Shown here: piece after piece, positions 10,631 to 49,041 of the stretch | Layout of the letters: each line of letters starts with the position of its first letter | How positions within the stretch are numbered: position 1 is the stretch's first letter | Assembly: GCA_029210645.1 (NCBI GenBank) | Contig: JARGFT010000004.1 | Span: 1 to 49,041, forward strand | DNA from: Anaerosomatales bacterium | GTDB taxonomy: Bacteria > Actinomycetota > Coriobacteriia > Anaerosomatales > SLCP01 | Reading direction: 5' to 3' | Length of the DNA: 49,041 nt | Translations under genes and position numbers: made by a program | Notes under the pieces: generated by a model | What the model saw: only the letters and a program-made list of their open reading frames with translations | Databases searched by the model: none | What the model was told of the DNA's origin: nothing

Positions 10631-10636
10631 AGCGAC

Positions 10637-29506: not shown

Positions 29507-30370
29507 CTAGAATCGCTGATTGCTCAGTGTCTCGCCGAGGCTGTTGAACAGATGGTACGAGTTCGGTAGGAGCTGTACTCCCCAGAATGCCATGAGCACG
29601 CCGAGCAATGCCAGAAGCGCCACCCACGCCAAGCGACGTCCGCGCCAACCAAGCGTGAAGTGCGCGTGCATGTAGAACCCGTAGGCCAGCCATGTGAGCA
29701 GGCTCCACGTCTCCACCGGATCCCAACGCCAGAAAGAACCCCACAGTCGGTAGGCCCAGATCGAACCCGACGCGATCATCACGGCGTTGTTCAGGAAGCC
29801 GAATGCTACCAAGCGCATCGAGACGTCATCGGTCTCCTCCTCAGACGGGATCCACTCAGGCAGTATGGGGGCATCGATCGCTTTGCTTCTCGCCCGTTCG
29901 CGCCACAGGACGATCACCGCAAGTCCGGCCACCGCCGAGTAGGCGGCATAGGTTATCCAGGCAAAGGTCACGTGTATCACGAGCCATGCACTCTGATACG
30001 GCGGCGTGACCGGTTGGATCGCCCCCGCTTGCGTCACACCGTAGCCGAGCGTGATGAGTACAGTTGGCAGCACGACTACCGCAGCAACGCCGAAGCCGCG
30101 GCGTACGTACGTCATAGCAAGATAGGCCGCCACCATGGCGAAGGAGCCGACAAGGACGTTCTCGTAGTCTTCGACGTAGGGGAAGTGCCCGGCCGAGTAC
30201 CAACGAACGCCAATCGCTACAGCGTGAGCCACGCATCCAACGACCGCCAGCCCGATCGACCAGCGCAGCATTTCGCGTCTCCCCCAGACCAAGGCCGAGA
30301 ACGCGAGGATGGTCGCCGCCGCGTAGAGAGCCGCAGCGCTCCAAATCAGCACGCTTTCTGCCGTGCTCAC
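29507..30370 (-). CDS. System II cytochrome c maturation protein CcsA-1 (canonical WWD)
   Basis: A 287-residue heme-handling protein with eight predicted membrane helices. The WWD domain is intact: WAYRLWGSFWRWDPVETWSLLTW, with conserved histidines before it (WLVIHVTFAW) and after it (YMHAHFTLGW) that ligate heme. With ResB it forms the System II synthetase that exports heme and attaches it to CxxCH cysteines. GTG start at 30370 overlaps the ResB-1 stop (GTGA), with GAGGA as ribosome binding site. Serves, by position, the multiheme cytochrome at the head of the operon. Confidence 0.92.
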   Translation of the reverse strand: MSTAESVLIWSAAALYAAATILAFSALVWGRREMLRWSIGLAVVGCVAHAVAIGVRWYSAGHFPYVEDYENVLVGSFAMVAAYLAMTYVRRGFGVAAVVVLPTVLITLGYGVTQAGAIQPVTPPYQSAWLVIHVTFAWITYAAYSAVAGLAVIVLWRERARSKAIDAPILPEWIPSEEETDDVSMRLVAFGFLNNAVMIASGSIWAYRLWGSFWRWDPVETWSLLTWLAYGFYMHAHFTLGWRGRRLAWVALLALLGVLMAFWGVQLLPNSYHLFNSLGETLSNQRF

Positions 30371-31749: not shown

Positions 31750-32234
31750 CTCGAGACTCCGGCTTGGGTATCGGTCTCAACGAGCTCGGACCGACCAACG
31801 ATCCAGTTCTCGTCGTCACGCACGAGCGAGTACCTCAGCCGCATGGTTTCGCGACGCGGCTCGCCGAGTGCCTTTCCTGAGTCGAGCTCAAGATCTTGGT
31901 AGGACCAAACCTCGGTCACCTCAACCGTGATCGACCCGTCCTCGTTCCGCTCAGCCGATGTGACTTCGAGAGACTCGAGCGTAGCGTCGAGTGCCATTGC
32001 CCTGCCCCATAGGAGAGTGATGTAGCTCGCAACGCGCTGCTTCTCCTCCTCAGTCGCAACATCGCCGAGCAGTTCAGGATCGAGCTCGCGTACAGCGCGC
32101 GACAGGGTCACGTCATAGGCTCGAACTGCGCGAGCGGCGATACGACGCGGCTGGTCCAGATACCACCAGATTCCGGCTGCCACGAGGCACAACACAAGCA
32201 CCGCGACGACGATGATCCATCCGCGGCGACTCAT
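31746..32234 (-). CDS. Membrane-anchored small protein between the two maturation pairs
   Basis: A 162-residue protein: one N-terminal membrane segment (GWIIVVAVLVLCLVAAGIWWYL), then an extracytoplasmic helix-rich part and strands ITVEVTEVWSYQDL and MRLRYSLVRDDENWIVG. The layout (helix, strands, terminal W-I/V motif) is like the small proteins at 26397 and 28647, so a shared NTF2/IMS-like fold is possible. It overlaps both neighbours by four bases. Function unknown, probably helping cytochrome folding or assembly. Confidence 0.68.
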   Translation of the reverse strand: MSRRGWIIVVAVLVLCLVAAGIWWYLDQPRRIAARAVRAYDVTLSRAVRELDPELLGDVATEEEKQRVASYITLLWGRAMALDATLESLEVTSAERNEDGSITVEVTEVWSYQDLELDSGKALGEPRRETMRLRYSLVRDDENWIVGRSELVETDTQAGVSR

Positions 32235-34891
32235 CGTGGCGACTCGGCGATGCGCCAGTCGGCGACGTTCCAGAAGTCGCCTGCGGGGTACGGTCCGGGA
32301 CGCACACCCTCGACTCGCGAGTTCCAGACAAGTTGGCGCTTCTCGTAGTAGTCGAAGATGGCCAGGCGCTCCTCGACGAGGCGCGCCGAGATCTCCCTGC
32401 TCAACCGGTCTCGTTCATCCGAGTCGTAGCTCGAACGCGCCTCGGCGAACAGCTGGCGCAGCAGTCTGTCGTCGCCTGCATCCACTCCCTGGCCCCACGG
32501 GTTCTCGACCGAGGGGGCATCGGTGATGTCAAAGACACCGCCCCAGCCTGCATCGGGGTGCCCGGGATAGACACCGATGGACACGGAGTGATCCTGTGCT
32601 GAAAGCCAGCCCGCGAACCACCAGGAGGAGTAGAAGCGCGGTGTGGCAAAAGCACGCTTCACCGCAACACCGGCCTCAGACCACGCCTCTTCGACCGCTA
32701 GCGGATGCTCGGGAGCGAGCTCGGGCAGTCCTCCCCTCGATGTATGGGCCAGCGTGACCGCCACATCAGCCGCATCGAGCGTCTCACTGGCGACCTGCGC
32801 ATCGAGCCTCGATGTCTCGGTCTCCGCCGAATGGGCGGCGGTACCGGGCGGGAATGGATCGACCGGCGCGGGCTCGGCATCGTAGATGGAATCACGCAGC
32901 AATTCGAACGGATAGACAGCGATCAGTGCCTCGCGTATGCGCTTGTCGGCGAGATCGTCCTCACGCGTGTCGAGCACCGAACCGACCCAGCGCCCCGTTG
33001 CGCTCTCTATCACGGTGCCGAGCCCATCGCGCGCGAGAGTCTGCGCCTCCTCCGTGCCCACCCAACTCCACACAGACGCCTCCGCGCTCAGATATGCCTG
33101 CCGTCCTGCGTCCCCGGATGCGAAGCGGACCTCGATCGTTCGCGGACGCAGGTTCGCCAACCCATCCGAGCCGGTCGATTCGAGAAGCCAGCGTGATCCG
33201 GCTTCCCAGCGAACGAGCTTGAACGGGCCGCTGCCGAGAGGCGCGGCCGCAAGCCCTCCATTCAGCAGGCCCGCGTTGTCCGAGACGATCTGAGCAGGCA
33301 GGACAAAGGGAAAGAAGCACTCCGGACCCGCCCCGAACGGCTCGCTCAGCGTCACCGTCAGCGCCAGTCCCTCTGCGCGCACCCCTGTGATCGAGGCGAA
33401 GCCTGGAAACGAGGGCGGTCCCGCTACTGGGTTCTCTTTGAGATAGCGCCAGGTGGCGACGACATCTTCAGCGGTCACAGGAGTGCCGTCATGCCAGAGC
33501 TGACCGGCTCGCAGCTCATAGCTCAGTGTGAGCCCATCTTCCGACACGCCACCGTTCGCTCGTGTTGGTATGTCCTCGACCATCTCGGGCATCGGCGTCA
33601 GATTCGCGTCGAAGGAGACCAGGCCGGAATACACAAGCTGGAAGAGGTCCCGTTCCACGGCGTCTCGGGCTCGGTACGGGTCGCCCGACTCAGGCTCTGA
33701 GGGATGTACGACCCTGAGGTCGGGGGTGACCGGAGCCGCCGAGGCGGTGCGGTGATCGGCCGCCTCATCAGGGCCGATCAGCAACACATCAGCCCGCTTG
33801 GACCCAAGGTCCCAACTCACCAGCGTGCCGTCAGAGTCCAGCCATGCAGGCGGCGTCCAGCCCCAGACTCCGCTGATGCGCGGCACCTGAATGGTTGCCA
33901 CCGTACCCTCAGGATCTAGTACCTTGAGCGTCGCACGCTCCCCCGCGCCGTCACCGATCGTAGAGCGGCCCGGGGCATCGGTGTCCACGGGCTTGGGTCC
34001 CTCGGCGAAGACCCGACCTGCAGTGTCTGCGGCGAACGGGCGATATCCGGACGGAACCGCGATGCTGGCCACGATCCTGCCATCGGGCGCTTCGACACGA
34101 AGAGGAAAGCCCGCGCCTGAGTCCGCAGGCTCGACGCGATAGAGGTTGTCGTTCGCGTCGAACATGATTGCGCCGGCGATGGGCTCGGCTTCCTCGGCAG
34201 TGGGGCCGCGGTAGGACGGGCCACCGACCGCGACGGGGCTGAGCGCACCTGCGTAAAGCGTCTCTTTCGACTGCGGATCGTACGCCCACTCATCATTGAG
34301 CACGTACACGCCGCCGCGCCCGAACACGATGGCTCGGGAAAGCACCCGTTCAGGCACGTCGAACTGCCCGATGAGCCCGCCTTCCGAGTCGTACGCGACA
34401 ACGGTCTCCGCACCGGTTTCGGCGTCAAGCTTCACAGCCCACAGCGTCAGGTCGGGACCGGGGGTGAATAGAGTCGCCAGCTCGTCGAAGACGAAAGCCG
34501 ACTCCTCCTCGCCCTCTTTCGAGAGCAGCCGCACGCGTGCGCGGGGCCTCACGCCCACCGGGTGATCGACGACCCAGAACCTGCCGTCACCACTCGGTGC
34601 GACGACCTCGATCGAGACAGGGCTCGTTCCATCTGCGCGCGACGCCTCTTCCAGCTCCGGATCGACCGACACCGCCCACGAGAAGGCGACCGACGCCCGG
34701 TAGGGAGTCCCCAGATCGAGCACCGGTGAGCTGCTCGACACGCTCTCGGGGACATCGGGCTGCCCGGCTCGGTTCGAGAAGAAGGTTAGCGCCGGAAAGA
34801 TCATCACGAAGGCGAGGACTGCGACCGCCCATAACACGAAGCGACGACGGCGCCATAGCCGATCATGCAGCTCTGCAAAGTCGATGCGCAA
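32231..34891 (-). CDS. Anchored propeller-like domain fused to SBP family 5 domain
   Basis: An 886-residue fusion. A membrane anchor at residues 18-36 (FVLWAVAVLAFVMIFPALTFF) is followed by repeated beta-rich segments (about 45-370) such as GDGRFWVVDHPVG, DLTLWAVKLDAETGAETVVAYDSEG and GAIMFDANDNLYRVEP, which look like an NHL/propeller module. From about 390 it matches peptide-binding SBP family 5: LFQLVYSGLVSFDANLTPMPEMVEDI, LTLSYELRAGQLWHDGTPVTAEDVVATWRYL, and DDLADKRIREALIAVYPFELL. The TTG start at 34891 has GGAGGG eight bases ahead; the frame upstream only shadows CcsA-2. No ABC permease or ATPase is adjacent. I know of no role for such a protein in cytochrome maturation. Confidence 0.8.
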   Translation of the reverse strand: MRIDFAELHDRLWRRRRFVLWAVAVLAFVMIFPALTFFSNRAGQPDVPESVSSSSPVLDLGTPYRASVAFSWAVSVDPELEEASRADGTSPVSIEVVAPSGDGRFWVVDHPVGVRPRARVRLLSKEGEEESAFVFDELATLFTPGPDLTLWAVKLDAETGAETVVAYDSEGGLIGQFDVPERVLSRAIVFGRGGVYVLNDEWAYDPQSKETLYAGALSPVAVGGPSYRGPTAEEAEPIAGAIMFDANDNLYRVEPADSGAGFPLRVEAPDGRIVASIAVPSGYRPFAADTAGRVFAEGPKPVDTDAPGRSTIGDGAGERATLKVLDPEGTVATIQVPRISGVWGWTPPAWLDSDGTLVSWDLGSKRADVLLIGPDEAADHRTASAAPVTPDLRVVHPSEPESGDPYRARDAVERDLFQLVYSGLVSFDANLTPMPEMVEDIPTRANGGVSEDGLTLSYELRAGQLWHDGTPVTAEDVVATWRYLKENPVAGPPSFPGFASITGVRAEGLALTVTLSEPFGAGPECFFPFVLPAQIVSDNAGLLNGGLAAAPLGSGPFKLVRWEAGSRWLLESTGSDGLANLRPRTIEVRFASGDAGRQAYLSAEASVWSWVGTEEAQTLARDGLGTVIESATGRWVGSVLDTREDDLADKRIREALIAVYPFELLRDSIYDAEPAPVDPFPPGTAAHSAETETSRLDAQVASETLDAADVAVTLAHTSRGGLPELAPEHPLAVEEAWSEAGVAVKRAFATPRFYSSWWFAGWLSAQDHSVSIGVYPGHPDAGWGGVFDITDAPSVENPWGQGVDAGDDRLLRQLFAEARSSYDSDERDRLSREISARLVEERLAIFDYYEKRQLVWNSRVEGVRPGPYPAGDFWNVADWRIAESPR

Positions 34892-34893
34892 GC

Positions 34894-35697
34894 TCAGATC
34901 CCTCCAGCAGTGATCATCGGTATCTCGAAGTAGTGGTAGGTGCCCGCGTAGAGGCTCCAGATCCAGTATGTGAGCACTATCAACGGCAGGAGCATCACCG
35001 TCGCGGCCGCAAGGCGCTTCTCCCGCCAGCCCCAGAACTGCCGGCCGTGTATCACGAGGCCCAAAGCGACCCAGGACGCCGCGGCGAGCGACTCCACGAC
35101 CTCCCAACGGAACCAATCCGAGAACAGCTGGAAGCTGTAGAACGCACCGACCGACGTCATCGCCGTGAAAGCAGCAAACCCCAGGCCTAACCGCCCTAGC
35201 TGTGACGCACTCGAGGCGATCGATGCATCGGCTATCCCCGCCAACGCAACGATCGCGACCGCCACCGCCGCCAGTAGCTGCGCATAGGCGAGCCACGCCA
35301 GCAGTACGTGCAGGTCCACCCAGAGGCTCCGCTCGGAGATCGTGAGCGGGTAGAGCGCGGTCTCGAAGAAGAGTCCGTAGACGAGCGTGACACAGGCGAA
35401 AAGCGTCAGCAGCGCCGCCGGTGCGGAGTGCGCTCGGTCTGAGCCGGGACGGACCATGAACCACGCTGTGATGATCAGCGCGAGCGCCGAGGCGATCGCG
35501 TTCTCGTGCGTGCCGAAGATCGGCGGATGGGCGGTGACCACCCAACGCACTGCCGCAACGGCGCACAACAAACCGGCGCTTGCGGCAAGACTCCAGCGTG
35601 CTGCCGTGACTCGGTCTATCCACGCTGCGATGGCCGCTGTGAACACGGTAGGAATCGCTGCGACATACCCAGCTATGACAAGCGTCTCAGCGTTCAC
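34894..35697 (-). CDS. CcsA-2, heme handling protein with degenerate WWD motif
   Basis: A 267-residue CcsA/CcmC-like protein with eight predicted membrane helices. The WWD region reads FYSFQLFSDWFRWEVVESLAAASW, aligning with WAYRLWGSFWRWDPVETWSLLTW in CcsA-1 but with W to F twice and D to E. The flanking histidines are kept (LWVDLHVLLAWL and GLVIHGRQFWGW). Heme binding is thus plausible but altered. GTG start at 35697 with AGGGACG; overlaps ResB-2 by 11 bp and ends two bases before the SBP fusion gene. Confidence 0.82.
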   Translation of the reverse strand: MNAETLVIAGYVAAIPTVFTAAIAAWIDRVTAARWSLAASAGLLCAVAAVRWVVTAHPPIFGTHENAIASALALIITAWFMVRPGSDRAHSAPAALLTLFACVTLVYGLFFETALYPLTISERSLWVDLHVLLAWLAYAQLLAAVAVAIVALAGIADASIASSASQLGRLGLGFAAFTAMTSVGAFYSFQLFSDWFRWEVVESLAAASWVALGLVIHGRQFWGWREKRLAAATVMLLPLIVLTYWIWSLYAGTYHYFEIPMITAGGI

Positions 35698-37090
35698 GAT
35701 CGTCCCTGAGTTTGTGTCTGACGCGGCCCGCGTACTCGCCGGTGTCACCGTAGAGCTCCCTGTTCACGCGCACGTCGGGGCCACCGTCTGCGGATGCGAG
35801 CACCAGCACTTCGATACGCGGAAACAGTAATCGCAACGCGGCGAACCCTGCGACAAGGGCGAACGAGATGAGCACCGCAAGCGCCCAAGGTGTTCGCACC
35901 ATGCGAAACACGCCGTAGTACGGCATGCCACGGATCACGATCGCGTCGTTCCCGAGATCGACGGTGGACCCCACGGGCATCACGGTCGGCTCGAGTACCC
36001 TCCGCATCTCCCCGTTCGCAAGCACGCGTGATGCTGCGATCTCAACGTAGGGGTTCGAACGGTTGAAGGATTGGATGGTCGGAGCGCCCTCATTGTCGAC
36101 GTAGTCTCCGAAGACCCTCACGTCCAACCGGTAGGTGCGGGCCGCGGTCCCCGTGCCCAGCTGTGGTGAATCGAAGGTGTCCGCCGTCCCCGACGGGAAC
36201 GTGTTGGTGCGGTACACCCGCTCTTGGGACTCACCTTGCGGGGGTCTGAACTCAACGTCGAGGGAGTAGCCGAAGTCCTCGATCGCTACCCACGTAGTCG
36301 GATCGACGAGGAGGGGATTCCCGACCGACATCTGCCGCTGGCCGTCACCCTCAGACATGAGGGCTTCCAGTCGCGTGAACAGCAGCATGTCTTTGAAGAA
36401 CTCCACGTCGATGCGCTCAACTGAAAGCGGAGGCAGGGGGTTGCCGCCAAGCCTCGCGTAGACATCGCCCGAATCGGGATCGACGAACTGCTGTTCTTGG
36501 CCGAGGAAGGTCTCGCCTTCGGTGAGCGCGAACTTGACGATGGTCGGACCGCCATCAGCAAGGTAGAGAGTCATCGACACGACCAGGCCGACGAAGGCGA
36601 GATGCCAAGCCGAGCTGCACAGCGGTGCCCAGCGGTTCCGTACCCCCCAGACGAAGTCAGGCGCGCGCACGACTCGGCGAAATCCCAGCCGCTTCAGCCT
36701 TGCCGCCCAGACCTCGGCGTGCTCATCGGTGAGTTCGTTGCCGGCCGAATCAGTAGGTCTGGAGTTGACGGTAGGTCCGCTTCGAGCGCGCCGTACATTG
36801 CGCCCGACCCTGGGGACGATACAGCCCACCGTGCTGATCACGAGCAGCGCGTAGAGCACCTGAAAGAACGGCTCGCCCAGCACGATCGCACGGATCTGTG
36901 CCGACGGCAGTCCGTACAACTCGAACGGTACCACCCAGACCACGAGTAGCAGAAGCCACGCGGTCATCACTGCGGTGGCCAACCGACGAGAAGCGAGAAT
37001 CCCGGGCACAGCGGAAAGCGGTCCCCGGGTTCTCGGTGAAGTCGATCTCTCGTCGCGCTGGGGGTTCAGACCGTCTCGTTTCTCGCTCAC
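35687..37090 (-). CDS. ResB-2, second ResB-like maturation protein
   Basis: A 467-residue protein with ResB topology: membrane segments ATAVMTAWLLLLVVWVV, PFFQVLYALLVISTVGCIVPRVGRNVRRA and SSAWHLAFVGLVVSMTLYLA, a large extracytoplasmic domain, and a last helix ALAVLISFALVAGFAALRLLFPR. It diverges much from ResB-1. The histidine in SSAWHLAF replaces the one in VVLHASIL. GTG at 37090 shares one base with the cytochrome stop, so translation is coupled to the giant cytochrome. Partner of CcsA-2. Confidence 0.82.
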   Translation of the reverse strand: MSEKRDGLNPQRDERSTSPRTRGPLSAVPGILASRRLATAVMTAWLLLLVVWVVPFELYGLPSAQIRAIVLGEPFFQVLYALLVISTVGCIVPRVGRNVRRARSGPTVNSRPTDSAGNELTDEHAEVWAARLKRLGFRRVVRAPDFVWGVRNRWAPLCSSAWHLAFVGLVVSMTLYLADGGPTIVKFALTEGETFLGQEQQFVDPDSGDVYARLGGNPLPPLSVERIDVEFFKDMLLFTRLEALMSEGDGQRQMSVGNPLLVDPTTWVAIEDFGYSLDVEFRPPQGESQERVYRTNTFPSGTADTFDSPQLGTGTAARTYRLDVRVFGDYVDNEGAPTIQSFNRSNPYVEIAASRVLANGEMRRVLEPTVMPVGSTVDLGNDAIVIRGMPYYGVFRMVRTPWALAVLISFALVAGFAALRLLFPRIEVLVLASADGGPDVRVNRELYGDTGEYAGRVRHKLRDDRER

Positions 37091-39609
37091 TACGGGTTGT
37101 AGTAGTTCATGGCACTGCCCTGACCCCATACAGTACTGTGCTGCGTACACGAGCTGTAGCTGTCCGCTACATCGATGGTCGAGCAACCCGCGTCGCCCCC
37201 GTTGGCGTAGGCGTCCGTCAGGAGGTGTGCGTCCCATGAGGCGCCGTTCATGAACCGGGTACCCATGTTGTCGCCGACGAGCGTGCCGTTCTGCACCAAG
37301 CCTCCGGTGTTGTCCCCATCGCCACGAGTCATGGAGGTGCCATGGAGGAGACCCGACGCCGTCGCGCCGTCGTTCCCGCGTCCTCCGTGGCAGTTGTAGC
37401 AGCCTGTGGGCACGTTATACAGCTTGTCGCCGGCGTCACATGAGCTGTTCATGCCGCCGTCGTGATCGAGGCGCGAGAAGATGTCGGCCGTGCCTGCGCC
37501 CGTGATAGTGAGTCCGCGGTCGCCGTCTCCGTACACGTCACGGCGGTGGCAGTTGACGCAGAAGTTGCGAATCTGCTCTTCTTCGGCAGGCGTGTAGCCG
37601 ACGTTGTTCGGATAGACCACGCCCGAGACCGTCGTGACCTTGATGCCGGTGTTGATACCGCGCAGCAGCCAGCGATTGGCCGAACCGTGCGGGCCGTGGG
37701 ACCCTGTCGACGCGAGATCGTCGTCGTTGTTGTGGCAGTCCGAGCACGTCACAAGGCTCGTGGAGGTCCATCCGTCGACGAAGGTGTTCGTCAGGCGGAG
37801 CCCGGTGCTGGTCCCGTTCACGTTCCTGCGTGCGTTGGACGTGTCCCACACACTATCGTAGAGTCCAGCGGGAAGTCCCTTGCGGTCGTAGATGGTTGGA
37901 TTGCTCGGCTGGTTGCGGCCCGACGCGAACAGCGGGTGGTAGGCATAGTGCTGCGGGTTGAAGTCCTTGCCCACGTCCGTCATCGGGCCTGCGATGTTGC
38001 CGCCGCCATCCGGCGAGGTGACCGGGTTGTTGCCCTTGATCGACCCCGACGGGACGTTCGGCGGCGTGTTGTTGCCCCACGCATAGGCACTGTGGCACTT
38101 GAGGCACAGTTGCCACTCGTAGGTAACCGATGCGGTCTTGTTGTAGGTCGGTGCCGTGGGTGCGCCGATCGAACCGGTGCCGGTCCACTTACCGCTTGCA
38201 GACCCGCTGATATCGACGCCCCAGACGCCCTTGTTCGCGCCGGAGACGGGTACGCCGGTCGTGTTGCCACGAAGTGCCGTGTTGTCGTTCGGGAACACGT
38301 AGCTCGAGTCTTGCGCCTCATGCGGGTTGTGGCAGTCCTCGCACTCGACGTGCTTGCTCGCGTTGGACGTGCCCCACCAGCCGGAGCCCGTCGGACTCTG
38401 ACCGTTCACGGAACTCGGCGCAGCCGTATACTCATCGGCCTTATGGATGCCCGAGTAGCCGGCGACGTTGTGCTTGCTCGTCTTGGCGAACTGCGTCTGG
38501 ATGCCCGTGGTGCGGGCGGTCATCGTGCCCACGCCGTATCCGTCCGCAGTCCCGCCGCCGCTGTGGCAGACGTAGCACAGGTTCTCCTCGCTCGACGTGC
38601 TCGCCCCTGCCAGACTGGCGCCGAGTGCTTGCGCTATGCGGTTATCGGCCGAGTAGTGCGGAGCCAGTGTGAAGGTACCCTTCTGTCGGCCCGAAGGGGA
38701 ACCGTCATCGTGGCACTTGATGCAGTTCGCGAGGAACGGGCGGCCCGTGCCGTAGCCGACCTTTGCCGCGTCGTTGATCTGGTAGTCATGCGCCGAGGCG
38801 TCGTAGCCGGCATCGTTGAGCTGCGGCGTGGCTGCGGACGCTCCTGTACCGGCGCCAAGCGACGCCTGTCCCGTGTTCTTAGTGAGGCTACCGGTGCTGT
38901 GGCAGCTCATGCAGATGCTGTAGCCGCCCGCGCCGCCCTGATAGTCGGTGTTCTTGCCGAAGGCCCCACTCGGCGAGTCGTTGTATGAGCCGCGCAGGTT
39001 GCCTGCGGCAGTGTTGAAGTTGGCGTGATCGACGTGGCAGCTCCGACATTCCAGCGTGCCGGTGGTCGTGGGATATGCGGTGTTCCACGCGTCCGGATTC
39101 GCGGCATCCAGCACGTGGTGGTAGCTGCTCGTAGCGGTCGGCAGCATGTTGTCGAGTCGCTCGGTCGAGCCCACGCCATGGCAGACCAGGCAGTCATCGT
39201 TGCCCGCCCCGCCGCTGGGATTGTGGACGTTGGTGGCGCTGTCGGCGGTCATGGTGCCGTGGCAGTCGAAACAGTTGGCGGTGGTCGCGCCGACCAGGTG
39301 CTCCGCCGTGGTCGATGAAAGCTTGAGTTTGTTCGCACCCGTCCGGCTCAGGCCCTCGACGAGGTCGCCCGCCTTGATGCCGGCGGCGGCCGTGTAGCCC
39401 GTGCCGGTCGCGTTAGTGCCCTCACCGGCTGCCGTGGCGTGGCAGGTGAAGCAGAACAGGCGCACGCTGGCAGCGTCGCCAGCTGCGGCGCTGATTGCGC
39501 CGATTTCGGTCCCGTTGTCGCCGAGCAGGTACTTCGTACCGTTGATCATCGTCTCGACCATCAGGCCGTCGGGCTCGGCCGAGCCGTGCGGGTTGTGGCA
39601 GTCGTAGCA
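37090..39609 (-). repeat. Partial, degenerate super-repeat copy E (hemes 63-75)
   Basis: Hemes 63-72 follow the cycle. The order then breaks: long low-heme linkers (NPTIYDRKGLPAGLYDSVWD) and three final motifs, CSDCH, CVNCH and CYNCH, that do not match the cycle. It forms the C-terminal cap. Confidence 0.8.
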
Positions 39610-42600
39610 CGGCAGCCCCTGGCCGGCGCTGAGTGTGCCACCGGCGGTCTTGATCTGGTGACCGGCATTAGGGGCTGTGCTCGTGCCGCCATCGGCGACC
39701 GGGTAGTGCTGCTTGATATTCTTCGTCGACGGCGCGCCGTCGTGGCAGTTGAAGCACAGTGCGTAGCGATCGCTGCCGATGCTCGCAGGATCGAACTGTC
39801 CGACAAGCTCATCGTAGGTGTACGAGGTGCCGTGTACGTCATGGCAGTTCTTGCAGTCTCCGCCTGCGTAGGTTGAACCCGGCCAGACAACTGCGGAGCC
39901 CTTGTGGATGCCGTTTGCGCCGTCGTAGATGGCGGTGCCCGGCCACGTGCCTATGTTGGGGTAGCCATTGGCGAGACGCGTGTAGGTCGTGCCGGTGGCC
40001 GAGGTGTGGCACCCGGCGCACACGGTGTTGTCGTTGGCAGAGATCGTGGTCGTGCCGATCTTGTTCGTTGCGCTGACCGGATCGTATACGCCGAGCAGTT
40101 TCGCCGCGTTCGAGCCGTGGTTATCATGACACTCGGCGCACGTGACCTCTTCGCCGGGCCCGATCGCGCCCGTCTGACTCCAGTGGCCGCGCGCAGCGTT
40201 GGTGCTCTTGTTCATGAGCGCCTGGTCGCCACCCGCGATCGTCACCGTCGACGGGATGTAGGTCGTGCCGTTCACGGTATAGCTCGGCAGAGCGGCCGAC
40301 GAGTGGCACTTGAGGCAGAAGGCGGAGCGCTCGCTGTCACTCGAGTAGGCGATCGTGTTGTAGGTATTGGCCGGATCGGTGACCTTGCCGGTGCTCGTGT
40401 CGACCACGTGCGGGTTGTGGCAGTTCGCACACTCGACCGAGTTTCCGCCTGCGGCCACCACCGGGTGCTTGGAGGTCAGGCCGAACTGCGCCTGGGTCGA
40501 ACGAGCCGCCTGGGTCATCGGCTGAACGCCGTAGTAGTCGTTGCCGGCCGTGACTCCGGTGTGGCAGCCGTAGCAGTGCGACTCCGAGAGCGGGTCGGTC
40601 AGGGCGCCCCCGAGGGCGGAAAGGATACGGCGCTCGGCCGACCAGTGCGGCCCGAACCGATACGTCGAGATCTGGAAGTCCTTGTACGTTGGGCTGTTCT
40701 CGTCGTTGTGGCACTTCGAACAGTTGGCGTTGAACGTGGTCGAGTCACCGAACTGGGATGTGGCGTAGTAGTCGTGCGCCGACGCGCCGTACTGATTCGC
40801 GCCTCCACCCGCAACGATCTTCGGTGTCGCCGTCGAGCCATCGCTCTTCTGATCGGTACCGACCTGCTTGGTCAGACTCGCCGCGTGGCATTCCGTGCAC
40901 ACGCCGCTGTCGCCGACAGAGTCGTAGTCGACTGCGGCCGAGGTCTCGACAGACATGCCGGATCGCAGGTTGCCCGACTTGCTGCCGTTGAACTTGTCGT
41001 GATCCACGTGACAGCTCAAGCAGTACACGTCGGTGGAGGAGGTCGGGTAGCTTCCGCTCGCGAAGGCCTTGTCACCGTCGTTGGTGGCACTGCCCATGAC
41101 GTGGTGGTAGACCGTGGCCCGGCTCGAACCGGTCTTCGCACCGATGCCGTCTTCCATGTACGTCTGGTAGGTCCCGTGGCACGTGTAGCAGTCCGAACCG
41201 CCGTTCGAGATGCCGCCGCTCGGGTTGTGGACGTTGTTGCCTGAGAGCGACGCGTAGTCGTTCCCGTGACATCCGTAGCAGCTCTGAGTCGTGTCGCCTT
41301 CGTTGTGACCGGACTGCGCCGGCAGGTGAAGAACCGTCGACGTAGTGCGGTCGATGCCTTCCACCTCAGCGCCCGCAGTGATGACCACCATGGCGGAGCC
41401 GTCCCAGCCCTTGGTGGTATCTGCGGTCGTGTGGCAGGTGAAGCAGAAGTTGCGCACGTTGTTGGGATCCGCTGCCTGATTGGCGGGGCTCATGAGGATC
41501 TCGCCCGCCGCATCGCCGACGAGCACGTTGGTGATCCCGTCGATCGCCGAGACGATCGTCAGGCCATAGGATGCACTCGCCGAGCCGTGCGGGTTGTGGC
41601 AGTTGTAGCATGGCAGGACGCCTCCGACCGGCAACGTGCCGCCGGCCGTCTTCATCTCATGTCCGCTTCCGCCCGCCGAACCGCCCACGCTCGACGGGTA
41701 GTACGTCTTGATGTTGCGGGTCGCGGGGCCGTCGGTGTCGTGACAGTTGAAGCAGAACGTGAAATCGCTCGCCGAGTAGCCGTTCACGCCGTGGGTTCCG
41801 ACTGCGTCTTCAGTGCGCAGCTCGTCACGCACGTTGGCCGTCCCGTGCACGTCGTGGCAGTTCTTGCAGTCACCGCCGAGATACGCCTTGCCCGGCCAAA
41901 CCGCATTGGTCGTGTTGTGCATACTGCCAGTGCTGTTCACGGGGTCGTACGACAAGCTGTAGACGGTCGAACCCGGCCACGTGCCATCGATGGGGTAGCC
42001 GTCAACCGGGTCACGAGTGCCCGACGGGAAGCTGCTCGACGCCGAGGTATGGCAGGCGAAGCACACCGTGGTGTTGTTGCCGGTGATGGCGGCCCCGTTG
42101 ATCTTGTTCGCCGCGGTGGCCGGGTCGTATGCGCCCAGCATCTTCGCATAGCTGGACCCGTGCTTGGCGTGACAGACGCCACACGAGCTGATCTCGCCGG
42201 AGCCGATGGAACCGCTCGCGCTCCAGTGACCGCGAGTACCGTACGTCGACTTGTCCATCAGGGCCTGGTCACCCGCTGCGATGGTCACCGTGGACGGAAC
42301 GTATGTCGTGTCGTTGACCGTGGTGGCCGGAACCAGTGCGTCCGAGTGGCACTTCAGGCAGAAGGTCGCCTTCTCCGCCTCGGTACCGTAGGCAACGGTG
42401 TTGTAGGTGTTGGCCGGGTCGGTGACCTTGCCGGTGCCAGCGGTGACCACGTGCGGGTTGTGGCAGTTCGCACACTCGACCGAGTTGCCGCCTGTCGCGA
42501 CCACCGGGTGCGTGTATGCCAGCCCGAACTGTGCCTGGGTCGAACGCGCAGCCTGGGTCATCGACTGAACGCCGTAGTAGTCGTTGCCGGCCGTGCCTCC

Positions 42601-45600
42601 GGTGTGGCAGCCATAGCAGTGCGTCTCCGAGAGCGGATCGGTCAGGGTACCGCCGAGCGCGGAGAGGATGCGGCGCTCGGCCGACCAGTGCGTTCCGAAC
42701 TTGTTGGCCGATGTCTGGAACACCTTGTACGCGGGATCGTTCTCATCGTTATGACACTTCGAGCAGTTCGCCTTGAAGGTCGTCGCATCGTCGAAGGTCG
42801 ATGTCGCAGTGTAGTTGTGTGCGGAAGCGCCGAACTGGTTGGCGCCGGCTCCCGCAACGATCTTGGGAGTAGCCGTCGAGCCGTCGTCCTTCTGCTCGGT
42901 CCCCATGCCCTGCTTCGTCAGGCTCGTCGCATGACAGCTGGTGCAGATACCGGCGTTCGAGTTCGTGGAGTAGTCGGTGTCCGCGCTGGCCGAACCCGAG
43001 CTGTTGGTGATATCGGAACGCAGGTTGGTGGCGTTCGACGCATTGAAGTAGTTGTGGTCCGTGTGGCAGCTGACGCAGTACACGTCGGACGTCGAGGTCG
43101 GGTAGCTGCCCGCATTCGGAGCGATGTCGCCCTCGCCCGCCGCTCCACCGAGGACGTGGTGGTAGACGGTCGCGTTGTTGGCGCCGGTGGCCGAGCCACT
43201 GTCGTCCTCCATGTAGCTCTGATACCCGGTGTGACAGGTGTAGCACGAAAGCCCACCCGGTGATACGCCGCCGGCCGGGTTGTGCGGGTTGTTGCCCGGT
43301 CCGTTGAGGTGACACTGGTAACAGCTCTGCAGGTCCGTGCTGCTGTGGCCGGTCACCGACGGGAGCTTGAGGCCGCTGCCGTCGCTGCCGTCGCGGCGCA
43401 GGCCCTCGACGGTGGTTGTGCTCACACCGGAATACGCGCCGCCCGTCCAGCCGACGGCGGTGTCTGACGTCGCGTGGCAGGTGAAGCAGAACTCGCGCAC
43501 ACCGGAGTCGTCAGACACGTCGATCTCGCCCGCAACGTCACCGATGTCGCGCACCTGCAACATGAACTGCCCGCGCGATCCATGCGGATTGTGGCAGTTG
43601 TAGCACGGCATCGCGTCGCCCACGGCCAGGTTCCCGCCGACCGTCTTGATCTGATGGCCCGCGTTGTCGCCGGTTCCGGTGCCGCCAGCTGCCACCGGGT
43701 AGTACTGTTCGATGTTCGAGGTCGCGAAGCCGGGGGTCCCGGCATCCGCCCCGTGGCACTTGAAGCACATCGTGAACTCGGCATCGGAGTAGACGTACGT
43801 GCCCGAAGCGTCCTCCGAGCGCAGCTGGTCGTACGTGTTGGCCGTACCGTGGACGTTGTGACAGTTCTTGCAGTCACCGGCAGCGTACGTGGTACCCGGC
43901 CAGGACGCCGTCAGGTGACCGTTGCCCGTGTGTGCCGTGGCGTTGTACGCCGAAGTGTACGGCGCCTCACCCGGCCACGTGCCGTCCATCAGGTAGCCGG
44001 TCCCGGCCTCTCGCTGAGCCTCTCCTGCGGGGAAGCTCGACGAGGCTGTGCTGTGACACGCCACACACACCGTGTTGTCGTTCGCAGTGATGACGTGGTT
44101 GTTGATGCGGCTCGAGTTGTCGGACCACGTGAACTCGCCGAGCAGCTTGGGTGCATTCGAACCGTGATTGTCGTGACAGCTCGCACACGGAACGACCTCG
44201 ATAGACGAGATGGATCCGCTCGCCGACCAGTGGCCCCGCGATGCATATGCCGTCTTGTCGTGTGCGGCAGCGTCTGCCGGATCGACGGTCACCGACTGCG
44301 GCACGTAGGCAGTGCCGTCCACCTGATACGCCGGGAGCGTGCTGTCATGGCACTTCAGGCAGAACGCTGCCTGCTCTGCCGCGCTTCCATACGCAGTAGT
44401 GTTGTAGGTGTTCTCAGGATCGACGACGCGATCGGCCGAGGACACCACGTGCGTGTTGTGGCAGTTGACGCAGGTGACCTGGTTCCCGCCGACGCTCTCG
44501 ACCGGATGGCTTGACGCGCCGACCCATCTGAATTGCAGGTAGACCTTCTCGGCGAGCGGCGTCATCGCCGCACCTGACGTGCCGTACCAGTCGTAACCCG
44601 CCGTCGTCTTCGCATCAGGGAACGAACCCACGGGTGCGTGACACCCGTAGCAATCCCACTCGCCCGCCGGATCGGATGGCGTCACGCCGAAGGCCGTCAA
44701 GATGCGACGCACCGCCGAGAAGTGCGGACCGAACTTGTTCTCGCTCGTCTGGAAGCCCTTGTAGCCCCCGATGTCCTCATCGTTGTGACACTTCGAGCAG
44801 TTGGCCTTGAAAGAGGTCGCGTCGTCGAAGGTCGAGGCCACTGAGTAGTTGTGCGCCGAGCTCGGAAAGTCGGTGCCACTGATGGCGGGCGTGCGTGTGG
44901 ATGCATCGCTGCTGTTGCCGTTGGCGCTCGACTTCTGGTTCGTCACGTCCTTGACGAGCGACACGCTGTGACAGCCGACGCATACGCCCGTGCCGCCACC
45001 GCCGGCCGGGAAGTCGGTATCAGCCGCTCCAGAGCTCGCCGACAGATCCGCACGCAGGTTGGAGGCCTTCGACGAGTTGAACGTGTCGTGATCGACGTGG
45101 CAGCTCATGCAGTACACGTCGGTGCCGGCACCGGGATACGACCCGACCGTCGACGTGTCGTCACCGCTGTACGTACCGCCACCCGTGCCGAGCACGTGGT
45201 GGTAGTAGCTGGTGCGGTCCGTGCCGTCCGCATCCATGGTCTCCTGGTATGCCTTGTGGCACGTGTAGCACTCGATGCCGCCCGCCGAGACGCCGCCCGA
45301 TGGCTCGTGCGGGTCCATATGGCAGTTGAAACAGTCGCTGGTGTTCGTTTCGGTGTGGTCGGCGAGCGCCGGCAGGAGCAGCTTGTACGAGGAGCTGTCA
45401 CGCATGATGCCCTCTACCGTGTCGTCTACGCCGACGGTGACCGTCGCGTACGCCGAACCATTCCAGCCTGTGTGCGTATCGGACGTGAGGTGGCAGGCGA
45501 AGCAGAACTTGCGCACGCCAGGCCCATCCGAGAGGTCGAACGCATCGGTGACCTCATCGCCGATGTTGCGGACCTGCAACATGAAGGGCGAGCTCGAGCC

Positions 45601-48600
45601 GTGCGGGTTGTGGCAGTCGTAGCACGGGACCGCGTCGCCCTGCGAAAGGGTGGCACCTGGTAGCCCGGACGTGTCGGACAGCACCCGGTGGCCAGCCCTC
45701 GTGCCGGTGCTCGTGCCGCCGACGCTCCCAGGGTACAGCGCCTTGATGTTCGCAACGGCCGGCGAGCCGTCGTGGCAGTTGAAGCAGAGCGTCAGGTCGT
45801 CGCTCGAGAACCCGTACACGCCTTCCGTACCGGACGGGTCCTCGGTGCGCAGCTGGTCGTAGTCGTTAGCCGTCCCATGCACGTCGTGGCAGTTCTTGCA
45901 GTCGCCCGCCACATACGTCCTGCCCGGCCAGACGGCCCCGAGGTGCCCATTACCCGTGTTCGTGCCGACATTATATGCGGTGTCGTACGTGGCCTGCCCC
46001 GGCCACGGGCCGGTGGTGGGGTAGCCGGTACCGTCGTACGTGAAAACACCGCCGGAGCCTGCCGTATGGCAGGCGTAGCACACCGTGTTGTTGTTGCCTG
46101 TGACCGGCGATCCGCTGATCGTCGGAGTACCGGTCACGTCGTTGCTGACGCCGATGAGCGACGGGTATATGGAGCCGTGGTTGTCGTGACACGTCGAGCA
46201 CTGCAACGCAATCGTCTGAGCAGTCGATGAGGTGTCCGCCGCCACTGCGTTGAAGTGGCTGCGCCCGACGTACTTGGACTTGTCGGGCCGCTCGCTCGGG
46301 TTCGGGTTCGCCTGTGAGGCCGCAGGGATGAACACGTCGTACGGCACGTACGTCGTACCGTCGTTGACCTTCGTCGGCGTTGCGCCGTCATGACACCTCA
46401 GACAGTAATTGCGGTTGGTGGCGTACTGCGTATCCGCCGACGGGTCTGTGTAGTAGACGCTCGGGCCCCCGGACGCCGGACCGCCGCCGACAAGCGTGTT
46501 GTCCGGGTCCTGGGCGACACCATCACCGGAGAAGCCGAGATCGGGCTCCGTCTTGTGAACGTTGTGGCAGTTCACGCACTCGACTCGTGCAGTCGTCGTC
46601 CCGTCCCCGTCAATCGGATGTCTGGAGACGATCGCAGCGTTCGTGAAGAGGCCCTTGAGGTTGAGCGCGCTGCTCCACATCTCGTCCATCTGGAGTCCGG
46701 TGCCGTAGAAGTCGGAGCCGAAACTCCCGTACGCAATCCCACCGTTGGGGTTGTACGGACCCACCACCTCGAAACTGCGGCTGTGGCACAGCCAGCACAG
46801 CTGCTCCTGCGGGTCCTCGGCGAATCCCCCTTGCCCACCGTCGGTCTGGAGAGCGCTGAGACTGGAGTCGTGCGCGCCGAACTCGTATGGTCCGGTCTGG
46901 AACGCCTTCGTGTACTCGTCGTTATGGCACTTCACGCAGTTCGCGTCAAAGGTCGAGCCGTCGGTCGTAAACGTTGCGGTTGCCGAGATGTAGTTGTGCG
47001 CGGAGTAGTAGTAGGTGTCGGGCGGAACCAGCAGGGTCTGGGGGAACCGGTCCTGCGACGACTTCCGGTTCGCTGTGTTCTTGGTCATCTGCACGCGGTG
47101 ACAGCTCACGCATACGCCCCCCGAAACGGGGTCATCCTGATCGTGGTCCCGGTTCACGTAGGTCGAGCCGTCGGACTTGTTTGGCTGGACGCCCGCACTC
47201 GACCTGAGGTTCTGCGCTCGGCCGCCGGTGTGGGCGGGGTCTGTGTTGATCCCCGGATCGAAGTAGTCGTGATCCACGTGGCAGACCAGGCACGTACGGC
47301 GACTGTCACTCGCGGTCAGCGATCCGGGATCCGGAATCGACGGGTATGGAGTAGCCACATCCGAGGCCATGTAGTGGTGGTACGAGTTGGGAGACTGCAT
47401 CGACTGGTAGTCGTGGCAGGTGAAACAGTCGAGGCCGCCGAGGGATGCGCCCGGCCCGGGGTTGTGGACGTTGTATCCGCCCCCAGTGTAGTCCTTGCCA
47501 TGGCAATCGCTGCATGAACCCGTGTCCTCCCACCCGTGACCGGTCACACTCGGGAGACGCAGCACGGAACCGTCCGACCCGTCACGTTGCAGACCTTCGA
47601 CCGTTTGGATACCGACCGCCTCGTAGCTGAGAGTGTCGCTGTTCCAGACGCGACCGTCCCAGCTCGAGTGACACGAGAAGCAGAACCTGCGGGTGCCCGA
47701 CGCGCTCGAGGTCCCGAGGTCGGCTCCGAGCTCATCGGAGATCAACCAGGCGTTGCCGCGCGAGGAACCGTGCGGGTTATGGCAGTCGTAGCACGGCAGC
47801 GGGGATCCCACAGGCAGCGTCCCGCCTGCTGTCTTGATGCGGTGCCCCGAGTTGGTATCGCCTGCCGTCACGAACTGCTTGATGTCAGCAGGCCGGGTCT
47901 CCAGCTCGCTCGGCGTCACGCCGCCGTGGCAGTAGAAGCACGATGCAGCGTAGGTACCGTTCGCCTGGTCGGTGAGGACGGTAGCCGTGGTCGTCGGGCG
48001 GAACGTGTCCCGAAGACCGTCGTAGCCGTTCGGTCCCCCGTGCGCAGCGTGGCAATACAGACATGAGCCTACCGGACGATTCACTGCGGTGCCTGATGGC
48101 GGTATCAGGTCGTGAGCGTTCTTGGCGGGGTCGCCGTAGATCGTCGGACCCGGGAACGTGCCGAGGACCGGGTATCCGGTTGCATCTCGCGTGGGAACTG
48201 CAGGGTAGCCGACTCCGTACCAATCGTCAGAGTCATTGTGGCACGCCTCACACCACGAGTTGTCGGTGGTCGTGGGCTCGACGCTGCCGTTGACCGTGAC
48301 GATCATCTTCTTGGGCAGCTTCGCGTTTAGCGTGGAGTCGCTGTGAACCGAGTGGCATCCGGCACAATCATTCGTGAGTTCGCCGGCAACCGGTGGCGAA
48401 GAGATTGTACTCGGCAGTGCCCACTCGAGAGTGTGTCCGCTCGAAAGGCCAAACGAGTCGGTCGGCCCGTCCGCGACATTGCTGCCGGAACTCCTGCCGT
48501 CATGGCAGTTGTAGCACACCACGTACTGGCCGACCGGAGTACCACCGGTGTCGCGCAGCAGGTTGTCGGCTGCGGCGACATGCGGCACGTGGCACCAGGA

Positions 48601-49041
48601 GCAATAGCGGGTACTCCCTGTGGGCTGCTGGTGAGGGTTGGTCGTCCAGCTCGAGTAGACCCCGGCGCTCGCTTCCGAGAGGACGGATTCGTTTCCGACA
48701 GCATCGTACGCGCTGACCTTGTAGTAGTACGTCTGGGCGGGAATACCGAGAACGTCCGAGAGGGACGGCGAGGGTACAGCGACGGTGGTGCCGATAGACT
48801 CATAGGGACCGTCGGGCAGGAGTGCGCGCCACACGCGGTAGCCGGTCACACCGACGTTATCCGTCGACGCCGTCCAGCTCACAGTCGCGATGGTCGGTGC
48901 GGAGGTGCCGCCGCTGGCCAAGATACCGGTCGGAACGGACGGCGGCTCGATGTCCGATTCAGCATACCCCGTGAAGTTCGCGCTGGTGAGCGTGTTGGCG
49001 TTGCCGGCGATGTCGAGCACGTTGCCGGCGGCGCACTCCAC
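37090..49041 (-). CDS. Giant multiheme cytochrome c, at least 75 hemes (5' end missing)
   Basis: An open frame of 3,983 codons that runs off the window end, so the N-terminus and signal peptide are unseen. Residues 1-30 look like the end of an Ig-like domain and 33-123 are a fibronectin type III domain (SVPTGILASGG, VSWTASTDNVGVTGYRVWR, YYYKVSAYDAVGNES). From C147 on I count 75 CxxCH motifs. They follow a 14-motif cycle with fixed companions: CYDCHNPHG, CVDHD, CSKCHNDE, CYGCH, CANCHNPH, CLKCH, CDNHG, CKNCHDVHG, CFNCHDG. YHH segments recur once per cycle and could give distal ligands. No C-terminal anchor is seen. It must be exported and is probably an extracellular electron conduit. It heads an operon with two heme ligation pairs. 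Confidence 0.96.
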   Translation of the reverse strand: MECAAGNVLDIAGNANTLTSANFTGYAESDIEPPSVPTGILASGGTSAPTIATVSWTASTDNVGVTGYRVWRALLPDGPYESIGTTVAVPSPSLSDVLGIPAQTYYYKVSAYDAVGNESVLSEASAGVYSSWTTNPHQQPTGSTRYCSWCHVPHVAAADNLLRDTGGTPVGQYVVCYNCHDGRSSGSNVADGPTDSFGLSSGHTLEWALPSTISSPPVAGELTNDCAGCHSVHSDSTLNAKLPKKMIVTVNGSVEPTTTDNSWCEACHNDSDDWYGVGYPAVPTRDATGYPVLGTFPGPTIYGDPAKNAHDLIPPSGTAVNRPVGSCLYCHAAHGGPNGYDGLRDTFRPTTTATVLTDQANGTYAASCFYCHGGVTPSELETRPADIKQFVTAGDTNSGHRIKTAGGTLPVGSPLPCYDCHNPHGSSRGNAWLISDELGADLGTSSASGTRRFCFSCHSSWDGRVWNSDTLSYEAVGIQTVEGLQRDGSDGSVLRLPSVTGHGWEDTGSCSDCHGKDYTGGGYNVHNPGPGASLGGLDCFTCHDYQSMQSPNSYHHYMASDVATPYPSIPDPGSLTASDSRRTCLVCHVDHDYFDPGINTDPAHTGGRAQNLRSSAGVQPNKSDGSTYVNRDHDQDDPVSGGVCVSCHRVQMTKNTANRKSSQDRFPQTLLVPPDTYYYSAHNYISATATFTTDGSTFDANCVKCHNDEYTKAFQTGPYEFGAHDSSLSALQTDGGQGGFAEDPQEQLCWLCHSRSFEVVGPYNPNGGIAYGSFGSDFYGTGLQMDEMWSSALNLKGLFTNAAIVSRHPIDGDGTTTARVECVNCHNVHKTEPDLGFSGDGVAQDPDNTLVGGGPASGGPSVYYTDPSADTQYATNRNYCLRCHDGATPTKVNDGTTYVPYDVFIPAASQANPNPSERPDKSKYVGRSHFNAVAADTSSTAQTIALQCSTCHDNHGSIYPSLIGVSNDVTGTPTISGSPVTGNNNTVCYACHTAGSGGVFTYDGTGYPTTGPWPGQATYDTAYNVGTNTGNGHLGAVWPGRTYVAGDCKNCHDVHGTANDYDQLRTEDPSGTEGVYGFSSDDLTLCFNCHDGSPAVANIKALYPGSVGGTSTGTRAGHRVLSDTSGLPGATLSQGDAVPCYDCHNPHGSSSPFMLQVRNIGDEVTDAFDLSDGPGVRKFCFACHLTSDTHTGWNGSAYATVTVGVDDTVEGIMRDSSSYKLLLPALADHTETNTSDCFNCHMDPHEPSGGVSAGGIECYTCHKAYQETMDADGTDRTSYYHHVLGTGGGTYSGDDTSTVGSYPGAGTDVYCMSCHVDHDTFNSSKASNLRADLSASSGAADTDFPAGGGGTGVCVGCHSVSLVKDVTNQKSSANGNSSDASTRTPAISGTDFPSSAHNYSVASTFDDATSFKANCSKCHNDEDIGGYKGFQTSENKFGPHFSAVRRILTAFGVTPSDPAGEWDCYGCHAPVGSFPDAKTTAGYDWYGTSGAAMTPLAEKVYLQFRWVGASSHPVESVGGNQVTCVNCHNTHVVSSADRVVDPENTYNTTAYGSAAEQAAFCLKCHDSTLPAYQVDGTAYVPQSVTVDPADAAAHDKTAYASRGHWSASGSISSIEVVPCASCHDNHGSNAPKLLGEFTWSDNSSRINNHVITANDNTVCVACHSTASSSFPAGEAQREAGTGYLMDGTWPGEAPYTSAYNATAHTGNGHLTASWPGTTYAAGDCKNCHNVHGTANTYDQLRSEDASGTYVYSDAEFTMCFKCHGADAGTPGFATSNIEQYYPVAAGGTGTGDNAGHQIKTVGGNLAVGDAMPCYNCHNPHGSRGQFMLQVRDIGDVAGEIDVSDDSGVREFCFTCHATSDTAVGWTGGAYSGVSTTTVEGLRRDGSDGSGLKLPSVTGHSSTDLQSCYQCHLNGPGNNPHNPAGGVSPGGLSCYTCHTGYQSYMEDDSGSATGANNATVYHHVLGGAAGEGDIAPNAGSYPTSTSDVYCVSCHTDHNYFNASNATNLRSDITNSSGSASADTDYSTNSNAGICTSCHATSLTKQGMGTEQKDDGSTATPKIVAGAGANQFGASAHNYTATSTFDDATTFKANCSKCHNDENDPAYKVFQTSANKFGTHWSAERRILSALGGTLTDPLSETHCYGCHTGGTAGNDYYGVQSMTQAARSTQAQFGLAYTHPVVATGGNSVECANCHNPHVVTAGTGKVTDPANTYNTVAYGTEAEKATFCLKCHSDALVPATTVNDTTYVPSTVTIAAGDQALMDKSTYGTRGHWSASGSIGSGEISSCGVCHAKHGSSYAKMLGAYDPATAANKINGAAITGNNTTVCFACHTSASSSFPSGTRDPVDGYPIDGTWPGSTVYSLSYDPVNSTGSMHNTTNAVWPGKAYLGGDCKNCHDVHGTANVRDELRTEDAVGTHGVNGYSASDFTFCFNCHDTDGPATRNIKTYYPSSVGGSAGGSGHEMKTAGGTLPVGGVLPCYNCHNPHGSASASYGLTIVSAIDGITNVLVGDAAGEILMSPANQAADPNNVRNFCFTCHTTADTTKGWDGSAMVVITAGAEVEGIDRTTSTVLHLPAQSGHNEGDTTQSCYGCHGNDYASLSGNNVHNPSGGISNGGSDCYTCHGTYQTYMEDGIGAKTGSSRATVYHHVMGSATNDGDKAFASGSYPTSSTDVYCLSCHVDHDKFNGSKSGNLRSGMSVETSAAVDYDSVGDSGVCTECHAASLTKQVGTDQKSDGSTATPKIVAGGGANQYGASAHDYYATSQFGDSTTFNANCSKCHNDENSPTYKDFQISTYRFGPHWSAERRILSALGGALTDPLSESHCYGCHTGVTAGNDYYGVQPMTQAARSTQAQFGLTSKHPVVAAGGNSVECANCHNPHVVDTSTGKVTDPANTYNTIAYSSDSERSAFCLKCHSSAALPSYTVNGTTYIPSTVTIAGGDQALMNKSTNAARGHWSQTGAIGPGEEVTCAECHDNHGSNAAKLLGVYDPVSATNKIGTTTISANDNTVCAGCHTSATGTTYTRLANGYPNIGTWPGTAIYDGANGIHKGSAVVWPGSTYAGGDCKNCHDVHGTSYTYDELVGQFDPASIGSDRYALCFNCHDGAPSTKNIKQHYPVADGGTSTAPNAGHQIKTAGGTLSAGQGLPCYDCHNPHGSAEPDGLMVETMINGTKYLLGDNGTEIGAISAAAGDAASVRLFCFTCHATAAGEGTNATGTGYTAAAGIKAGDLVEGLSRTGANKLKLSSTTAEHLVGATTANCFDCHGTMTADSATNVHNPSGGAGNDDCLVCHGVGSTERLDNMLPTATSSYHHVLDAANPDAWNTAYPTTTGTLECRSCHVDHANFNTAAGNLRGSYNDSPSGAFGKNTDYQGGAGGYSICMSCHSTGSLTKNTGQASLGAGTGASAATPQLNDAGYDASAHDYQINDAAKVGYGTGRPFLANCIKCHDDGSPSGRQKGTFTLAPHYSADNRIAQALGASLAGASTSSEENLCYVCHSGGGTADGYGVGTMTARTTGIQTQFAKTSKHNVAGYSGIHKADEYTAAPSSVNGQSPTGSGWWGTSNASKHVECEDCHNPHEAQDSSYVFPNDNTALRGNTTGVPVSGANKGVWGVDISGSASGKWTGTGSIGAPTAPTYNKTASVTYEWQLCLKCHSAYAWGNNTPPNVPSGSIKGNNPVTSPDGGGNIAGPMTDVGKDFNPQHYAYHPLFASGRNQPSNPTIYDRKGLPAGLYDSVWDTSNARRNVNGTSTGLRLTNTFVDGWTSTSLVTCSDCHNNDDDLASTGSHGPHGSANRWLLRGINTGIKVTTVSGVVYPNNVGYTPAEEEQIRNFCVNCHRRDVYGDGDRGLTITGAGTADIFSRLDHDGGMNSSCDAGDKLYNVPTGCYNCHGGRGNDGATASGLLHGTSMTRGDGDNTGGLVQNGTLVGDNMGTRFMNGASWDAHLLTDAYANGGDAGCSTIDVADSYSSCTQHSTVWGQGSAMNYYNP
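39610..41610 (-). repeat. 14-heme super-repeat copy D (hemes 49-62)
   Basis: 667 codons. Nearest relative of copy C, with long identical DNA tracts, for example around 40395-40450 against 42445-42495. Confidence 0.9.
41611..43605 (-). repeat. 14-heme super-repeat copy C (hemes 35-48)
   Basis: 665 codons. Very similar to copy D over the stretch covering hemes 41-45 (ANKFGTHWSAERRILSALGG, then SVECANCHNPHVV). Confidence 0.9.
43606..45624 (-). repeat. 14-heme super-repeat copy B (hemes 21-34)
   Basis: 673 codons. Same order of landmark hemes as copy A, closer in length to copies C and D. Confidence 0.88.
45625..47793 (-). repeat. 14-heme super-repeat copy A (hemes 7-20)
   Basis: 723 codons from the CYDCHNPHG heme to just before the next one. 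The longest and most divergent full copy; it has an insertion around the segment NSYHHYMASDVATPYPSIPD and an extended spacing before hemes 15 and 16. Confidence 0.85.

Follow-up and report, generated by a model that had tools for sequence, protein, structure and literature searches.

The nearest precedent for a modular cytochrome in a single chain is GSU1996 of Geobacter, which consists of four triheme domains (PMC10138318). GSU1996 and GSU2210, known as monomeric 'nanowires of hemes' (12 and 27 hemes, respectively), carry several hemes per chain, as does the giant cytochrome encoded in the stretch of DNA that we analyzed (the window; 49,041 nucleotides from an uncultured actinobacterium), and GSU1996 is likewise made of repeated heme domains. 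The repeating units differ, however. The unit of GSU1996 is a c7-like domain with three hemes, one of them with His-Met ligation, whereas the unit described here has 14 hemes and 14 conserved histidines, and five such units precede a separate cap in a protein of ten times the size, with predicted export from a Gram-positive cell. Also set against GSU1996 and GSU2210, the window protein had no PDB match by sequence.

Higher heme numbers have been published for the giant cytochromes of ANME and Methanoperedenaceae (86 hemes, PMC9012536; 113 hemes, PMC7082337), which resemble the window protein in being very large and exported and have been proposed to act as conduits across the cell wall or a proteinaceous layer. 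As a correction to the original prediction, size alone does not make the window protein exceptional. ANME types A and B have S-layer domains and C-terminal transmembrane helices, both of which are absent in the window protein, and in the descriptions of the ANME giants that we found, no long period of hemes with an exact length is mentioned. OmcS, OmcE and OmcZ also have c-type hemes ligated by histidines throughout (all 12 ligands in OmcS), as predicted for the window protein, and in both cases the hemes are presumed to stack as a chain. Yet these cytochromes are polymers of monomers with 4-8 hemes, whereas the window protein repeats within one polypeptide and has no detectable sequence relation to them. 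OcwA and OmhA of Gram-positive thermophiles (9 and 11 hemes) offer a parallel for surface electron transfer in Gram-positive cells but are far smaller, and no 14-heme repeat has been reported for them. The direct relatives are 19-heme cytochromes from the same order, which share a homologous block and an identical five-heme cap but have one block instead of five and, for the most part, no long Ig-like N-terminus.

Period and composition of the heme array

The cytochrome gene runs as a single open frame through the window (Table 1) and contains exactly the 75 CxxCH motifs that the original prediction had counted, with no CX3-5CH or CxxCK motifs in the same 3983 codons. Its product is a predicted multiheme c-type cytochrome with covalently bound hemes. 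Pfam multiheme domains scored above cut-off, with Cytochrome_C7 matching stretches of the protein, and the Pfam and NCBIfam searches returned nothing beyond generic doubled-CxxCH or multiheme domains.

We compared the 26-residue contexts around all 75 CxxCH motifs at every lag. Context identity was 0.350 at a lag of 14 motifs and decreased to 0.294, 0.238 and 0.170 at lags of 28, 42 and 56, respectively; lags up to 35 that are not multiples of 14 gave values of 0.06-0.12 (about 0.09). Shuffling the order of the motifs 2000 times yielded a mean lag-14 identity of 0.099 (sd 0.011) and a maximum of 0.140. The self-comparison thus revealed an offset of 14 motifs, at lag 14 and its multiples only, which is the 14-heme super-repeat first proposed for this gene. 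The triheme period of GSU1996 was absent (lag-3 identity, 0.082). The landmark hemes from which the period had been read were all present at their motif numbers (for example, CxKCHxDE at motifs 13, 27, 41, 55 and 69), with minor variants: the fifth CxKCHxDE motif is CIKCHDDG, and block 1 carries CLYCHAAHG at the CKNCHxVHG position. The corresponding DNA periods of 2169, 2019, 1995 and 2001 bp were reproduced exactly.

The five blocks are nearly uniform in size (666-702 aa) and blocks 2-5 are 42-60% identical in amino acid sequence. The period of the original prediction stands, with the correction that the blocks are not of a single kind: block 1 sides with the blocks of single-block proteins, and blocks 2-5 derive from an added type of block. 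Within the block, context identity was slightly higher at even lags and heme types 1, 3 and 7 were weakly alike, a signal too weak to claim an internal sub-repeat.

Table 1. Features of the cytochrome locus and its maturation genes, in window coordinates.
Feature	Position	Strand	Remarks
CcsA/CcsB-type heme-handling maturation protein	29507..30445	-	PF01578; TIGR03144 E 2.9e-48 but below its cut-off
ResB-family protein, System II cytochrome c maturation	30367..31749	-	PF05140, E 1.4e-36
162-aa protein	31746..32234	-	Weak ARC6-like IMS match, below cut-off
1130-aa protein with SBP_bac_5 (extracellular solute-binding) domain	32231..35623	-	Between maturation genes
ResB-like gene	35687..37237	-	Pfam PF05140; directly downstream of cytochrome
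Giant multiheme c-type cytochrome gene (predicted)	37090..49041	-	75 CxxCH, 3983 aa inside window
C-terminal cap, 5 hemes (motifs 71-75) and heme-free tail	37090..38403	-	Common to 19-heme homologs
14-heme block 5, motifs 57-70	38404..40491	-	Groups with last blocks of four relatives
14-heme block 4, motifs 43-56, added-block clade	40492..42534	-	60% aa identity to block 3
14-heme block 3, motifs 29-42, added-block clade	42535..44532	-	
14-heme block 2, motifs 15-28, added-block clade	44533..46638	-	
14-heme block 1, motifs 1-14, first/single type	46639..48663	-	35-38% aa identity to blocks 2-5
End of N-terminal Ig-like repeat region and fibronectin-III-like linker	48664..49041	-	Fold by eye, no Pfam match

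Block number and block history in relatives

Profiles for the 14 heme positions of the block and for the five cap hemes were used to assign each motif in homologs from genomes of the same order. The homologs share one architecture, in which n blocks of 14 hemes are followed by a five-heme C-terminal cap (T1-T5), with the hemes in the same order. Among proteins closed at both ends, 16 genomes encode the 19-heme form with a single block (G047, G013, G039, G050, G058, G051, G056, G049, G019, G036, G053, G055, G054 as a second copy, G060, G063 and G021), two have 33 hemes (positions 1-14 twice, plus the cap; G041 and G035), one has 48 (G017; three blocks, the cap and one extra N-terminal motif, or 47+1), one has 61 (four blocks and the cap; G030) and two, G054 and the window gene, have 75 (five blocks and the cap). 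Besides these, six single-block forms have 17-18 CxxCH motifs, heme 9 having been lost or two motifs having become CX3-4CH. G045 carries a form with one block. In G010, 16 + 45 = 61 hemes are split between two contigs, both of which end at one and the same position of the block; because the contig ends do not overlap exactly, this count is known only modulo 14. We left out G023, whose 22-heme frame ends inside block 2.

Other giants of the order served as controls (G021b, G029, G028 and G031, with 48, 44, 38 and 42 CxxCH motifs, respectively). They share the block ends and/or the cap without a comparable period, the top lag identity being 0.12-0.16. A second class of giants (L087, L104, L105 and L107) has 38-48 CxxCH motifs and many CX4CH motifs, with the block ends and the five-heme cap in common with the block family but a different, irregular middle; this class reflects mosaic exchange of the array. 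The block family was absent, at the cut-offs used, from three other species of the genus to which the window belongs. Because these congeneric species do without it, the family is dispensable in the lineage, and its distribution is patchy; loss and transfer both fit.

The series of 19, 33, 48 (47+1), 61 and 75 hemes bears out the original proposal of growth by whole 14-heme blocks, and the probable conduits appear, as far as their sequences tell, to lengthen in whole-block steps across related species. Our searches of the open-access literature met neither a 14-heme unit nor a quantised heme series; the paper describing the order counts 17-18 multihemes in each strain, without mention of a repeat. 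It is for the quantised growth by whole blocks that we found no precedent; the heme number is no record.

A tree of 44 blocks from the window gene and its homologs contained a branch with 100/100 support that separates added blocks from single blocks and from those that come first in complete arrays, G017 excepted. The first blocks of G027 and G010 fall on the added side, and both arrays are cut by contig ends. The last blocks of five proteins cluster together, so arrays of three or more blocks predate those lineages. In G017, the three blocks make up a clade of their own, a pattern that points to independent block amplification in this lineage. A stretch of 197 aa in Ca. Geothermocultor (class Ca. 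Aquicultoria) is repeated at a distance of exactly 14 hemes with 98.5% DNA identity over 591 bp, a copy whose similarity marks a recent event. A block array with CX3CH at heme 11 was also noted in this organism, from another actinobacterial class (L064), where a contig end cuts it. The ancestor was probably a 19-heme protein with one block and the cap; in-frame tandem duplication by exactly one block, and then re-duplication of the added block, would have produced the 33-, 47-, 61- and 75-heme forms. The block comparisons show this putative route of duplication to each of the four forms.

Heme ligands and ends of the protein

Each block has 14 columns of histidines outside the heme-binding motifs, which are kept at 97-100% in 39 complete blocks. 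The window protein retains all of them except for one in block 5, where a histidine adjoins the aligned position. Because there are 14 conserved non-motif histidines for 14 hemes, all hemes are probably six-coordinate with bis-His ligation, suited to electron transfer rather than catalysis, and methionine ligation of block hemes is, for the same reason, unlikely. AlphaFold models of one block (17 rows) and of its first eight hemes (14 rows) had mean pLDDT values of 36 and 38, respectively, and we dropped them as evidence of the fold. Neither an initial profile of the block nor a 19-heme homolog matched the PDB at E ≤ 0.01. The 17-row block profile gave only weak matches to small unrelated multihemes (best E, 0.005), which we took as motif-level similarity rather than homology, and no nanowire cytochrome was among the PDB matches even at E ≤ 10.

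The window ends in a run of N within the cytochrome gene, while the contig itself goes on to 133,897 bases in all. An ATG start lies at L029:6720, about 2.7 kb upstream of the window edge, and the extension adds ~890 codons that include two N gaps (212 and 308 N, nominal size), for a whole protein of about 4,875 aa with the gaps counted at nominal size. The ATG is followed by a hydrophobic, signal-peptide-like segment and then by Ig-like repeats; at L029:4043-6720, these are near-identical tandem repeats broken by the two N gaps, and their copy number is uncertain. The readable part of the upstream codons (two gaps of 520 nominal bases being unread) contains no CxxCH motif. Thus, the gene does run past the window, as first noted, but 75 is probably its full heme count and not a mere minimum, because the contig reaches the ATG without a readable CxxCH upstream.

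Signal-peptide-like N-termini are also present in G030 and G041. Among the multi-block proteins, about 970-1620 aa precede the first heme in G041, G054 and G030, forming a long Ig-like N-terminus. One single-block form (G047) has an Ig-like region as well, and most singles, like the two-block G035, begin with only a short N-terminal part. At the C-terminus of the window protein we saw neither an LPxTG motif nor a hydrophobic segment; there is no hydrophobic 19-mer (KD>1.7) in the 3983 aa, and the readable protein (520 nominal bases unread) has no Pfam match to an S-layer domain.

A candidate electron conduit and its gene neighborhood

We consider it likely that the protein works as an exported electron conduit in a single polypeptide, composed of a stalk, five 14-heme blocks and the five-heme cap. 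Its nanowire-like nature is what we infer from the predicted all-histidine ligation, the export signals, the nearby maturation genes and the extracellular electron transfer biology of the order. The chain would begin with a signal-peptide-bearing, Ig/fibronectin-like stalk at the N-terminus and continue through the five blocks to the cap, and the System II (ResB/CcsA) proteins encoded nearby would attach the hemes on the outer side of the membrane. Electrons would most likely pass along the block series from a donor on the membrane side to an acceptor, such as an Fe(III) mineral, presumably outside the Gram-positive wall. Assuming packing as in OmcS, which rises 48 Å per six-heme subunit (PMC6584659), one block would span about 11 nm, and the full set of 75 hemes about 60 nm. 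Those members of the order that have been cultured are Gram-positive, among them the obligate Fe(III) reducer Parvivirga hydrogeniphila (PMC9686372). Another, Anaerosoma tenue, does not use Fe(III).

The hemes of large cytochromes are commonly seen as strings without a regular order; in this family, the count moves in exact 14-heme steps plus a fixed end. Heme-chain length thus turns into a genetically set quantity, open to comparison across species and to construction in the laboratory in versions of one, two, three, four or five blocks, and its relation to conduction and reach would become directly testable. The arrangement also suggests a route by which Gram-positive cells could move electrons through a thick wall via a single protein. 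More tentatively, and with the balance somewhat against it, the copy number of internal blocks could be a ruler for the distance from membrane to mineral, giving wires of 19 to 75 hemes in different Gram-positive species, in increments of one whole 14-heme block that each add roughly 11 nm. If this reading is true, a lineage sets the length of its wire genetically, in whole-block steps.

The same architecture could instead serve as an electron capacitor, a store held in the wall or on the surface for up to 75 electrons, whose length was selected for capacity and not for distance. The periplasmic GSU1996 has been described as a capacitor (PMC10138318), charge would rise with block number whatever the geometry, and we found no anchoring or docking feature in the protein. 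Block numbers are not directly informative between storage and conduction; however, the conserved order of the blocks and the distinct five-heme cap suggest a polarity, and an unordered store needs no fixed end, which makes the capacitor an unlikely reading. We regard as more improbable still that the gene encodes a polyprotein, cleaved outside the cell into several 14-heme subunits that assemble into a filament. The near-uniform length of the blocks and the stand-alone one-block form would suit such a precursor, OmcZ is processed before filament assembly (PMC11208441), and Parvivirga cells make appendages only on ferrihydrite (PMC9686372), but block and cap stay fused in the 19-heme form of many genomes, and we noticed no conserved motif for cleavage where the blocks meet.

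The long Ig-like N-terminus of multi-block forms raises the prospect of a surface protein that adheres to minerals or cells, with the Ig-like region doing the work and the heme array merely touching the mineral. The presence of that region in a single-block form and the short N-terminus of a two-block form speak against this, and the retention of all 75 motifs and of the distal histidines indicates that the hemes are under selection; we hold adhesion as the main role to be very improbable. An assembly that had falsely expanded the repeat, a concern raised with the original prediction, can be put aside with near certainty. The gene does adjoin N gaps in a near-identical Ig-like repeat, but the heme blocks share no more than 49-66% of their DNA sequence, with no exact repeat longer than 42 nt, so the array is not an assembly product. 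Further, independent assemblies contain the array as well, among them one that has it on a 525-kb contig of a 9-contig genome.

The electron conduit, our preferred reading, has a candidate maturation machinery in the genes downstream (Table 1). The ResB-like open reading frame next to the cytochrome overlaps its end, and the ResB-like gene probably begins at an internal start. Most homologs of the cytochrome have a CcsA homolog in their vicinity. In the SBP_bac_5 protein of the same gene group, the domain is fused to a long N-terminal part. Upstream of the cytochrome (L029:7719-10803) are genes for a 7-heme cytochrome, an NHL-repeat protein and TPR proteins, and the cytochrome-NHL pair recurs beside single-block homologs in several genomes. 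The window also contains a gene of the phage-integrase family close to its opposite end (2877-3884), and genes for phosphoketolase and acetate kinase adjoin each other at 8240-11788.
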